DNA from: Deltaproteobacteria bacterium
Lineage (GTDB): Bacteria; CG2-30-53-67
Assembly (NCBI GenBank): GCA_013151235.1
Contig: JAADIO010000025.1
Coordinates: 1-17,283 of the forward strand
Length of the DNA: 17,283 nucleotides
Direction: 5' to 3'
Shown here: positions 12,813 to 17,017 of the stretch, in pieces
Layout: every line of letters starts with the position of its first letter
Numbering within the stretch: position 1 is the first letter of the stretch
Made by a program: the position numbers and the translations under genes
The notes under the pieces: model-generated
Databases searched by the model: none
Seen by the model: only the letters and a program-made list of their open reading frames with translations
Told to the model about the DNA's origin: nothing

Positions 12813-13565
12813 ATGAATAAGACACAACGGGCGACCCTGCAAGTTACGGAAACCTTTGACCGTGCCAAGCGGGACGAGCTGATTCTGACCTATGCGCCGC
12901 AGATTAAGTATATCGCTCATCGTCTCGCCATGCGTCTGCCGGCCCACATCGAGGTGGACGACTTGATCAGTTCCGGCGTCATCGGTCTGATTGATGCCAT
13001 CGAGAAGTTTGATCCGAGTCGGGATATCCAGTTTAAGACCTATGCGGAATTCCGCATAAAAGGGGCCATGCTCGATGATCTTCGGTCCCAGGACTGGATT
13101 CCCCGCTCCGTACGGCAGAAGGCGGGAGCGCTGGAACGGGCCTACGCGGAGATTGAGCAACGGGAAGGACGGGCGGCGACGAACGAAGAAGTGGCCGAGG
13201 CTCTGGAGATGACGATGGACGCCTTTTATGATCTCATAAGCCGGGTGAAGGGGCTTTCGCTGATCAGTATTGAATGCGGCGATGAGGAAAATATCCTGAA
13301 TCGAAGGATCTTTGAATCCTTGACCGGCGATCCGGAAGACAACCCCCTGTCGATTCTCAAGGACAAGGAGTTGAAACAGATTATCGCCCGGAGTATCGAG
13401 ACACTGCCGAAAAGCGAAAAGATGGTGGTTTCTCTCTATTATTATAATGAATTGACGATGAAAGAGATCGGCAAGGTCCTCTCCATTACGGAGTCCCGGG
13501 TCTCTCAAATCCATACCCAGGCAATGCTGCGGATGAGGGGGAAATTGAAAAAAGAACTTAAGTGA
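12813..13565 (+). CDS. fliA: Flagellar sigma factor FliA (sigma-28)
   Basis: FliA directs RNA polymerase to late flagellar and chemotaxis promoters once the hook is complete. The protein has 250 residues, typical. Seen: region 2 with DDLISSGVIGLIDAIEKFDP and FKTYAEFRIKGAMLDDLRSQ followed by DWIPRSVRQK, which is diagnostic of the FliA/SigD group; region 3 with TNEEVAEAL; and region 4 with LPKSEKMVVSLYYYNELTMK then EIGKVLSITESRVSQIHTQA, a helix-turn-helix. The start is 3 bases after the flhG stop; AAGG directly abuts the ATG, so the ribosome site is poor and translation probably depends on flhG. Sigma-28-like sequences overlap the 3' end, so FliA may activate the genes that follow. The anti-sigma factor FlgM is not encoded here. 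Confidence 0.97.
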   Translation: MNKTQRATLQVTETFDRAKRDELILTYAPQIKYIAHRLAMRLPAHIEVDDLISSGVIGLIDAIEKFDPSRDIQFKTYAEFRIKGAMLDDLRSQDWIPRSVRQKAGALERAYAEIEQREGRAATNEEVAEALEMTMDAFYDLISRVKGLSLISIECGDEENILNRRIFESLTGDPEDNPLSILKDKELKQIIARSIETLPKSEKMVVSLYYYNELTMKEIGKVLSITESRVSQIHTQAMLRMRGKLKKELK

Positions 13566-13585
13566 ATATCGGTAAATTCCGATAA
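13559..13585 (+). promoter_or_regulatory. Candidate FliA (sigma-28) promoter P1 at the end of fliA
   Basis: TAAG (13559-13562), exactly 15 bases, then TCCGATAA (13578-13585). Against the enterobacterial consensus TAAA-N15-GCCGATAA this is 3/4 and 7/8 with ideal spacing. The -35 box lies inside the last codons of fliA. It is oriented toward the HEAT/cheR/cheY genes, with an expected start near 13592. A perfect 6-bp inverted repeat, TATCGG (13567-13572) / CCGATA (13579-13584), overlaps the -10 box. Confidence 0.65.
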
Positions 13586-13695: not shown

Positions 13696-15627
13696 ATGAT
13701 GCTGCAGGTGAAACGGGAACTTTCGGAGTTGTTTTTACAATTGAGAAGCGAGGACCCCGAATTGCGCCGTCAGGCCGCACGAATGTTGGGCGAGACGGGG
13801 AGTCCCAAGGCTGTTCCGGCCCTGGTCCGGGCACTGGAAGACCCCCATCGAGGTTGTCAGGAAGCAGCGATGGGGGCTCTCACTGCAATCGGTGGAGAGG
13901 AGACCATTCAGGAACTTGCCGGGCTTGTCTCCAGAGGGAAGGCCTATGTACGAAATGCTGCGATCGAAATCCTGGAACTGATCGGACGGGATGCGCCGGC
14001 ACTTCTGATGCACCTATTCCAGGAGGGAAATGATTCCGTCCGGATGATCGCAGCCAAGATCTTCGGCCATCTCCATGCCGTAGAAGCCATTCCCGTCGTG
14101 ACGGATTTATTGTACGATTCGAATCCCAACGTGCGTTGTGCGGCCCTGAACGCGCTGGGGGCGATCGGGGCCCGGGAGGCGCTTCCCCGGATTCGTGAAT
14201 TTCTGAAAGACCCGGAAGAATGGGTTCGTTTTTCCTCTATCCAGGCCCTGGGGAATCTCCGGGATCAGGCTTCTCTTCCGGCATTGTTGAGCCTTCTCGA
14301 TGACAATGTTGCAGAATCAACCTGTTGGGTGGCCGTAGAGGCGCTGGGCAGGATCGGGAGTGTTGAGGCACTGCCGAAACTGTTCGCCGCACTTCCCCGC
14401 GCCACACCGCTGGTTCAGCACCAGATCGTGCATCACCTCGTCCGGATTGCCTTACAGAACAACGAAGAGGATGCATGGCGGGTGGAGGCTTTCGCTCCCT
14501 ATGAAAGCTATTTTATTGCAGCCCTGAAAAGCCCGCAGAAGGAGGTCCAGGACTCTGCGGTCCAGGGGCTGGAATGGATCGGGACCGCCGGTGCCGTCAT
14601 CCCGCTTCTGACCTTCGCCCGGGCCCTTCATGAATATGCAGAAGAAGACCGCGTCAATGCTGTTCGAAAGACCTTGACGGTGATCGGCGAGCCGGATGAA
14701 CTGATTCGTCTCCTTTCAGAATCGGATTGCACGGGTGCTCCGGACGAACTCGTCTTGAAACTGGCCGGGGATGTCCTGGGGAAGTTGCGCGAATTCCGGG
14801 CCGTGCCGGCCATCATTCGGCATCTTGAAGCTCCTCCGGAACCTGTCCGCCGTACGATGGTACGTGCCCTTGGACGCATCGGGGATCCCGGGGCCGGTCC
14901 CGCTCTGATCAATCTTTTAGAGGACGGAAACGGACATGTGAGAAAAGAGGCGGCCTTCTCGCTTGGGCGAATCGGTGACGAAGAGGCTGTGCTCCCCCTC
15001 TTTGAAGCCCTTGACCGGGAGGAGTTCATGGATGTGCGGGAAACGATCCTTCATGCCCTCGTGGCCATCGGCGGCGATCGAGTCAAGGAAAAGTTCCGGG
15101 AATTTGTTTTTTATCCCGACCCCGATGTGCAGGCTCTGGCCATTCAGGGAATCGGCCTTTTAGGGGACGATGAGGCATGTGATCACCTGATTGCCAATCT
15201 GGGGAACGAAAACGAACGGATTCGTCTCAAGGTTGTCGAATGTCTGGGCAGGATTGATTGCGACCGGATGATGGAACCCTTGATTCACTCCCTGAACGAC
15301 GAGAGTGAACAGGTCCGTCTGGCCGCCGTAGCGGTTCTGGCAGCGCATCCTTCAACGTCGGTCGTCCGTTCTTTGATCGGTTCCCTGTATGACGACAGTC
15401 ATTGGGTTGCCTTCAAGTCCGCCGATGCACTGGGGCGGATCGGCGACCCCGTGGCGGTGGAAACCATGATGGCCCTTCTGCAGACAACCGATGATGTTGC
15501 TTTGAAGATTGCACTGGGTCGGGCTTTGAAGAAAATCGGTGATCCGCGTTCCGAGACGATTCTGCGCAGGATGGCGCTGGATCCGAATCCGGATATTCGT
15601 GCGCTTTTTTCGGGAAATGGGGAGTAA
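13696..15627 (+). CDS. HEAT-repeat (PBS lyase HEAT-like) protein beside cheR
   Basis: A 643-residue protein that is an uninterrupted array of helical HEAT-like repeats of about 30 residues, probably 15 to 20. Recurring cores can be read directly: ARMLGETGSPKAVPALV, LNALGAIGAREALPRI, VEALGRIGSVEALPKL, VRALGRIGDPGAGPALI, FSLGRIGDEEAVLPLF, ADALGRIGDPVAVETMM. No signal peptide, membrane helix, catalytic motif or other domain is visible, so a cytoplasmic binding or scaffold protein is inferred. The exact function is unknown. ATG 13696 is preferred (TTGGAG at 13684-13689, six bases upstream; a second ATG follows at 13699); an upstream GTG at 13633 has no ribosome site. It follows the sigma-28-like promoters and its stop is about 10 bases before cheR, so it is probably co-expressed with chemotaxis genes and may organise CheR, receptors or the motor. 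Confidence 0.9.
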   Translation: MMLQVKRELSELFLQLRSEDPELRRQAARMLGETGSPKAVPALVRALEDPHRGCQEAAMGALTAIGGEETIQELAGLVSRGKAYVRNAAIEILELIGRDAPALLMHLFQEGNDSVRMIAAKIFGHLHAVEAIPVVTDLLYDSNPNVRCAALNALGAIGAREALPRIREFLKDPEEWVRFSSIQALGNLRDQASLPALLSLLDDNVAESTCWVAVEALGRIGSVEALPKLFAALPRATPLVQHQIVHHLVRIALQNNEEDAWRVEAFAPYESYFIAALKSPQKEVQDSAVQGLEWIGTAGAVIPLLTFARALHEYAEEDRVNAVRKTLTVIGEPDELIRLLSESDCTGAPDELVLKLAGDVLGKLREFRAVPAIIRHLEAPPEPVRRTMVRALGRIGDPGAGPALINLLEDGNGHVRKEAAFSLGRIGDEEAVLPLFEALDREEFMDVRETILHALVAIGGDRVKEKFREFVFYPDPDVQALAIQGIGLLGDDEACDHLIANLGNENERIRLKVVECLGRIDCDRMMEPLIHSLNDESEQVRLAAVAVLAAHPSTSVVRSLIGSLYDDSHWVAFKSADALGRIGDPVAVETMMALLQTTDDVALKIALGRALKKIGDPRSETILRRMALDPNPDIRALFSGNGE

Positions 15628-15637
15628 TCCGTTGGTT

Positions 15638-16525
15638 ATGTCGCCTTCCGTGAAAAAGGATGTAAAATCCCGTCCGGTGCCGATGTTGGAGAGGATACGG
15701 ATTGATAAAAAATCCTTCCGGAATCTCCGGCAGATCATCTATGAACGTTCCGGGATCTCTGTGACGGAGGGGAAAGAATATTTACTGGAGAACCGCCTTG
15801 CCGACCGGCTGAAAGTAAACCACTGTAAATCCTTTGAGGAGTATGACTATTTCCTCCGTTATGAGCCGGGCGGAGAAGCGGAAATCGTCCGGATGGTGGA
15901 GTGTATCACTACCAACGAAACCTACTTCTTCCGGGAGGAGAGTCACTTTACGATGCTTCGGGAGGAAATTCTTCCACAGTTGGCTGAACAGAAAAGGTTC
16001 CGGGTGAACCCGTTAATCCGGATCTGGAGTGCCGCTTCCTCCACGGGGGAGGAGCCGTACACGATCTCCATCGTTGTGGAAGAGGCAAAACGGAACTTGT
16101 CAGGTGTGCGGGTGGAGATCCTTGCCAGTGATATCAATGATGCGGTGATCCGGTCCGCCCGTCGCGGGATTTATGAAGAAAATTCCGTCCGCCATATCCC
16201 GCCGGACATTCGAACGCGATATTTCAGCAAAGAGGGTGCCCGTTATCGTCTGGACGAGAAGATCAAGTCGCAAGTCCGTTTTGTCCATCTGAATCTGGTA
16301 GACAAGAACCGGCTGCGAAGTGCATCCGGGATGGATATTATCTTCTGCAAAAATGTCTTGATCTATTTTGATCCGGTCATGAAGAAGAAGGTCGTTGAGT
16401 CGCTCTATGATTCCCTGCTGCCGGGCGGATATCTCCTGATCGGCAGATCGGAAGCCCTCCATGATATTTCACGGGCCTTCCGACCGATGAAGATGAAAAA
16501 CGGTCTGGTCTATCGGAAGGAATAG
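15638..16525 (+). CDS. cheR: Chemotaxis protein methyltransferase CheR
   Basis: CheR transfers methyl groups from S-adenosylmethionine to glutamates of chemoreceptors, for adaptation. The protein has 295 residues from the chosen start. Seen: helical N-terminal CheR domain (about 20-90: FRNLRQIIYERSGI, LLENRLADRL), the family motif TTNETYFFRE (91-100), SAM-binding SAASSTGEEPY (131-141), LASDINDAVIRSARRGIY (162-179), and FCKNVLIYFD (236-245) with LPGGYLLIGRSEAL near the end. The start is uncertain: ATG 15617 (overlapping the HEAT stop), TTG 15632 (GGGGAG seven bases upstream), ATG 15638 and ATG 15683 are all in frame; only the last two-thirds of the N-terminal region is conserved. It has no C-terminal TPR extension, a contrast to some CheR proteins; a neighbouring repeat protein may fill a similar role. 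About 123 bases without a gene follow. Confidence 0.95.
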   Translation: MSPSVKKDVKSRPVPMLERIRIDKKSFRNLRQIIYERSGISVTEGKEYLLENRLADRLKVNHCKSFEEYDYFLRYEPGGEAEIVRMVECITTNETYFFREESHFTMLREEILPQLAEQKRFRVNPLIRIWSAASSTGEEPYTISIVVEEAKRNLSGVRVEILASDINDAVIRSARRGIYEENSVRHIPPDIRTRYFSKEGARYRLDEKIKSQVRFVHLNLVDKNRLRSASGMDIIFCKNVLIYFDPVMKKKVVESLYDSLLPGGYLLIGRSEALHDISRAFRPMKMKNGLVYRKE

Positions 16526-16648: not shown

Positions 16649-17017
16649 ATGGCAACTCGAATTTTGGTCGTGGATGACGACAACATCACACGAAAGTTTG
16701 TCAGCTTCATTCTGAGGTCGGAAGGTTTTGAGGTCATTGCAGCGCAGGATGGAATGGAGGCCCTGGAGATGATGGGCGGGACGGAGGTGGATCTGGTTAT
16801 CACCGATCTCAATATGCCGAAGATGGATGGGGCCGAACTGATCCGGACGATCCGGAACGGGTCCGTGCAGCCCGATTTGCCGATCATCATGTTGAGTACG
16901 GAAGCGGATGAAGAAAGCCGGGACCTTGTTTTTCAGGCCGGTGTGTCGGATTACATGATCAAGCCTGTATCACGGAAAGAGCTGACGGACAAGGTTCGGG
17001 ATTGTGTGAAGAATTGA
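16649..17017 (+). CDS. CheY-like single-domain response regulator
   Basis: A 122-residue receiver domain with no output domain, so it acts by protein contact, for example at FliM or a kinase. Seen: RILVVDDDN (acidic pocket D9-D10-D11), the phosphoacceptor D53 in DLVITDLNMPKMDG, T84 in MLSTEA, and K105 in MIKP; all catalytic residues of the family are present. It differs from the downstream cheY: it has TDLNMP rather than TDWNMP, and DDNITRKF rather than DDFPTMRK. It may be a second CheY, a phosphate sink or a regulator for another partner; sequence alone does not decide. AAAGG lies eight bases before the ATG. It is 16 bases upstream of the next cheY gene, so the two are probably co-translated. 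Confidence 0.92.
   Translation: MATRILVVDDDNITRKFVSFILRSEGFEVIAAQDGMEALEMMGGTEVDLVITDLNMPKMDGAELIRTIRNGSVQPDLPIIMLSTEADEESRDLVFQAGVSDYMIKPVSRKELTDKVRDCVKN

Follow-up and report, generated by a model that had tools for sequence, protein, structure and literature searches.

A gene for a protein built throughout of HEAT repeats lies directly before cheR in the window, that is, the whole 17,283-nucleotide stretch of DNA that was analysed. The question raised by this arrangement is whether the protein is a partner of the CheR methyltransferase or a random neighbour. The original prediction favoured a partner, and that view is now strongly supported by adjacency of the two genes across phyla, by natural gene fusions and by co-divergence of the two proteins. 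A functional link between HEAT and CheR is near certain, and very probably the HEAT protein is a hitherto undescribed partner that positions CheR or controls it during chemotaxis. The preferred reading, with a probability of roughly 0.6, is that HEAT is a dedicated CheR partner, which binds CheR and holds it at the receptors or regulates it.

The HEAT gene and its operon

The HEAT open reading frame starts with ATG and is preceded by a GGAG 6 bases upstream. Its 643-residue product consists of HEAT repeats throughout, as had been predicted from the letters alone. HEAT-type families are the only ones that Pfam recognises in it (HEAT_2, E 7e-93, 305.6 bits), and two-helix units of about 31 residues each repeat in tandem along the whole protein, which places it in HEAT_2. 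A repeat model detected 17 repeats, and AlphaFold2 gave one continuous solenoid of 40 helices, or about 20 HEAT repeats (mean pLDDT 94.1, pTM 0.82). The solenoid fold is shared with Pfam HEAT_2 and HEAT_PBS proteins and with the best PDB matches of the model, namely the PP2A scaffold subunit, CAND1 and SF3B1 (TM about 0.3-0.5), and these matches reflect the global solenoid only and imply no functional relation. The scores against the NCBIfam models for phycobilin lyase and NblB-like HEAT_PBS proteins fall far below the cut-offs (150.6 against 300 for NblB, 131 against 330 for CpcE).

Both the HEAT gene and cheR are under purifying selection, with dN/dS of about 0.17 each in comparison with a genome of the same genus, G001. 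The HEAT gene of that relative (L013 1501-3429) is interrupted in frame by a single TAA at codon 539, which could equally be an error of the draft assembly or a genuine nonsense mutation. Conservation within the HEAT family peaks in repeats 3-5 (residues 86-155), where the consensus shows R-N in repeat 3 and D-x-D-x-R-K-F-x-x-D in repeat 4. The window protein keeps R86-N87 and N145, and where the consensus reads R-K-F-x-x-D it has R-M-I-x-x-K. No listed full-profile score is higher than its own, but the protein belongs to the profile's own training alignment.

The cheR gene, which also starts with ATG, follows the HEAT frame after a gap of 10 bases, and fliA precedes the pair, so that this part of the predicted layout was correct (Table 1). 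Pfam assigns CheR_N and CheR to the 295-residue CheR, along with a weak generic methyltransferase match. The expected lack of a TPR extension was borne out, and the protein is thus not a CheR-TPR fusion. The proposal of sigma-28-like promoters held in part: one site, in front of the HEAT-cheR operon, is credible because it is matched in three relatives, a TCAAGT-N13/14-(G/T)CCGATA match being located in the fliA-HEAT gap of G001, G003 and G005. By consensus alone the site is not exceptional, since about 2.3 sites as good are expected per window. The window ends within the second of two CheY-like genes. In G001 (L148) that gene is followed by cheA, cheB, an MCP gene and an HDOD gene, giving the order HEAT-cheR-cheY-cheY-cheA-cheB-mcp-HDOD.

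Table 1. Positions of the features of the HEAT-cheR region in the window
Feature	Position	Strand	Basis or remark
fliA, sigma-28 factor	12813..13565	+	NCBIfam FliA_WhiG
Putative sigma-28-like promoter TAAG-N15-TCCGATAA, before HEAT-cheR operon	13559..13585	+	Matching site in relatives
HEAT-repeat protein gene, 643 aa	13696..15627	+	ORF, RBS, Pfam HEAT_2, AlphaFold2, profile neighbours
HEAT N-terminal half, residues 1 to about 350	13696..14745	+	Kept in 3/4 natural HEAT-CheR fusions
cheR, chemoreceptor glutamate methyltransferase, 295 aa	15638..16525	+	Pfam; alignment to Salmonella CheR 1af7/1bc5
First CheY-like single receiver domain gene of operon	16649..17017	+	Pfam Response_reg
Second CheY-like receiver gene, cut by contig end	17034..17283	+	Sequence

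HEAT and cheR across bacterial genomes

A search of genome contigs with the HEAT protein alone found nothing, and an alignment of HEAT-linked CheRs was therefore used as query. This gave 80 named loci, in which HEAT frames were identified by a purpose-built repeat model together with Pfam. A HEAT_2 frame adjoins cheR in 32 of the 75 assessable loci (L078 included), a count that is biased because the query was made from HEAT-linked CheRs; among loci whose CheR shares 40% identity or more with that of the window, the figure is 21 of 24. The pairs are distributed over Nitrospirota, Thermodesulfobacteriota, Myxococcota, Deferribacterota, Bacteroidota, Ignavibacteriota, SAR324 and one Bacillota.

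The converse and fairer test was to match a HEAT profile, A2, to whole genomes and then to ask where cheR lies. Another phylum, sampled with 118 genomes, yielded 31 full-length matches, and 28 of them have cheR on the same strand no more than 1 kb away (26 of the 28 lie upstream of it), whereas this holds for 5 of 39 lower-scoring and mostly generic HEAT matches. A sample of 386 genomes from across the bacteria gave 69 strong full-type matches; for 62 of these, in 52 of 58 genomes, cheR is on the same strand at a distance of no more than 1.3 kb, and the match is mostly directly upstream of it. The original prediction had named homologues beside unrelated genes as the outcome that would speak against it, and the opposite was found in both samples. 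Some bias is left in these counts, because the HEATs used to train A2 were CheR-adjacent and the two samples may have some species in common. The exceptions in the first sample are one match at a contig end and two real ones (G074 and G148); of the seven in the second, those in G271 and G337 lie at the end of a contig. Plasmids, searched at the protein level, yielded two weak HEAT matches only.

The proposed family can be described as HEAT proteins whose gene shares a strand with cheR, is no more than about 1 kb from it and usually directly precedes it, and the window pair has this arrangement. Members away from cheR occur in G074, G148 and G203. The full-length HEAT genes of G074 and G148 (L163 8758-10767 and L164 9225-11138) lie among genes for REC-GAF-HD-GYP, histidine kinase, single REC and REC-TPR proteins, a setting in which the family may have a second use, together with response regulators. 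Short HEAT frames of about 210-365 residues are also found directly before cheR (L166 in G080, L171 in G170, L099 6378-7001 and L078 5946-7037). They come from che clusters of other types and from a single Bacillota genome, so that the association is wider than the long HEAT family. A STAS domain stands at the start of the HEAT protein encoded before cheR in a genome of the Deferribacteraceae (L082 5565-6983), and a CheR-STAS protein is encoded in L051.

The genome of the window contains a second HEAT-cheR pair, on contig C19, in a cluster ordered MCP-MCP-ZnR/REC-HEAT-cheR-cheB-GAF-cheY. The HEAT paralogue has 667 residues and is about 30-33% identical in the longest matched parts, and the cheR paralogue is 43% identical. 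No flagellar genes were found in that stretch, one block of which is masked; the masked letters (L009 4848-7250) stand where cheA would be expected. A gene for a zinc-ribbon and receiver-domain protein (ZnR/REC) lies directly upstream of this HEAT gene (L009 12652-13485), as it does in many other clusters of the second type. All five other members of the family of this organism keep one or both pairs.

Three cluster types can be distinguished: the flagellar type (flhA-flhF-flhG-fliA-HEAT-cheR-cheY-cheY-cheA-cheB-mcp), the second type (mcp-mcp-ZnR/REC-HEAT-cheR-cheB-GAF-cheY) and a Desulfovibrio type (cheB-HEAT-cheR-ParA-like-cheY-cheA). A link of HEAT to fliA was considered and rejected, the second type having no fliA beside HEAT.

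Fusions, co-divergence and the receptor tether

In four genomes (G047, G056, G308 and G439) a single open reading frame encodes HEAT repeats followed by CheR_N and CheR, with HEAT_2 E-values of 1e-38, 3e-23, 2e-38 and 8e-41, respectively. Three of the four align to A2 profile positions 5-350, the N-terminal half, and the same three keep the most conserved segment, D-x-D-V-R-K-F-x-x-D-I-L-G, for example DKDVRKFVVDILG. All four occupy the place taken elsewhere by the separate pair, with cheB and GAF as neighbours, and they adjoin ZnR/REC wherever the contig extends that far. Operon position by itself could reflect a common pathway in which HEAT and CheR make no direct contact, but the fusions argue against this explanation. 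Direct docking of HEAT on CheR is likely.

The two proteins have also diverged together. In a tree of 111 CheRs, in which L078 is still scored as HEAT-less, the HEAT label requires 6 changes compared with 34 in shuffles. The 45 HEAT-linked CheRs are all contained in a single part of the tree that has 64 rows (support 82, not starred). HEAT and CheR distances correlate with a Mantel r of 0.72, none of 2000 shuffles exceeding 0.22, and with r 0.44 when close pairs are left out; this correlation is owed in part to species history in common. Structure prediction was applied to L062, where HEAT and cheR are in frame, by folding the two with AlphaFold2 as a single chain in which the stop codon is read as a residue. 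Both parts are well folded (pLDDT 92.7), but with a pTM of 0.61 their relative placement is not reliable and the model gives no confident interface between them. The co-fold is a weak test, because the alignment is shallow and mostly unpaired and part of its HEAT-only rows are misaligned into CheR columns.

Enteric CheR reaches its receptors through a C-terminal pentapeptide on the latter, and the contact residues seen in 1bc5 are described in PMC2577667. Aligned to Salmonella CheR (1af7/1bc5), the window CheR has a beta-subdomain loop 4 residues shorter and the pentapeptide site is missing. HEAT-linked CheRs share the shorter loop, and when the site is defined by at least four of the six Salmonella contacts, 0 of 45 keep it; none of the six MCPs of the window's genome has a C-terminal tether pentapeptide. 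The HEAT-less CheRs are likewise without the site in 58 of 60 cases, so that its absence does not in itself require a HEAT partner. For the same reason the proposition that HEAT is present wherever CheR has no tether was rejected. A HEAT partner could stand in for the tether as one solution to the same problem, that of bringing CheR to its receptors, in a system where CheR has no site and the receptors no peptide; the missing tether is compatible with this model and not proof of it.

Known systems and possible roles

The closest known parallel is provided by the CheR-TPR fusions such as WspC and FrzF, in which the TPR has been proposed to recruit CheR to particular receptors (PMC3447774). In both cases a helical-repeat solenoid is attached to a chemotaxis methyltransferase. 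The differences are that the repeats here are HEAT instead of TPR and are mostly encoded by a separate upstream gene, and that HEAT lies N-terminal to CheR in the fusions whereas the TPRs in the loci examined here are C-terminal. Furthermore, HEAT-cheR is found in the main flagellar che operon as well, and CheR-TPR has been reported mainly from pathways with other functions (PMC3447774). By analogy, the best reading is of a HEAT-CheR partnership comparable to, and distinct from, CheR-TPR, with a solenoid that may be separate or fused.

A second parallel, likened by description, is OE2401F of Halobacterium salinarum, a HEAT_PBS protein from a chemotaxis region. It is needed for tactic responses and interacts with CheY, CheD, CheC2 and archaellum proteins, and its orthologues could not be defined (PMC2666748). 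This protein differs from the window HEAT in being archaeal and in lying beside CheF (DUF439) rather than CheR. The OE2401F study is the sole paper in the open-access literature searched that joins HEAT repeats and che genes in this way; HEAT goes unmentioned in the Geobacter and Myxococcus chemosensory genomics papers and, in the sense of a CheR partner, in the CheR-TPR paper. The bacterial HEAT-cheR pair thus has no description in the open literature searched, subscription papers lying outside that search.

How would such a partner act? In the preferred reading, the conserved N-terminal half of HEAT would bind CheR, and the solenoid would hold CheR at the receptor array or regulate it, so that the right receptors would be methylated during adaptation. 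The CheR lineage served would be the one without the usual receptor-tethering site, with HEAT encoded immediately before it or fused to it. We infer physical binding, a role as a docking surface or as a scaffold joining receptors, CheR and CheY, and an effect on receptor methylation. A broader version, which must be called tentative, makes HEAT a general component of bacterial adaptation that joins CheR, receptors and a receiver protein, the scaffold both placing and gating methylation and being fused in some lineages.

A rather improbable alternative is adaptation gated by a response regulator, in which HEAT would sense or bind a receiver protein (the CheY pair or ZnR/REC) and couple its phospho-signal to CheR. 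Receiver genes do accompany HEAT: cheY is present in 26 of 31 HEAT-positive loci, in the second cluster type the gene immediately before HEAT, or before the HEAT-CheR fusion, is ZnR/REC, and the G074 and G148 members away from cheR sit among receiver-domain genes. However, cheY is common in all che clusters, including 24 of 44 HEAT-negative loci.

An action on motor switching rather than on receptor methylation is unlikely. It would fit the switching phenotype of a HEAT-repeat protein from a chemotaxis region (OE2401F) and the position of the window HEAT gene, after fliA and with a sigma-28-like site. Nevertheless, HEAT tracks CheR and not fliA and is fused to CheR, two cluster types place HEAT and cheR together with cheB, and the pair is common to flagellar clusters and to clusters with no flagellar gene found nearby, which argues for a role in the adaptation module. 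Judged from this context, HEAT most likely functions there, in receptor methylation, and not at the motor. Chance proximity of a generic HEAT protein to cheR is conceivable given how common HEAT proteins are in bacterial genomes, but such hitch-hiking is hardly credible in the face of adjacency in many phyla, in three or more cluster types and in both gene orders, together with co-divergence and four fusions.

As a CheR partner, HEAT becomes a concrete candidate for how CheR finds receptors that carry no tether, an open question in most bacteria. The finding also suggests that the chemotaxis parts list drawn from model organisms may miss a component in Nitrospirota, in Desulfovibrio- and Geobacter-type bacteria, in Myxococcota and in others.
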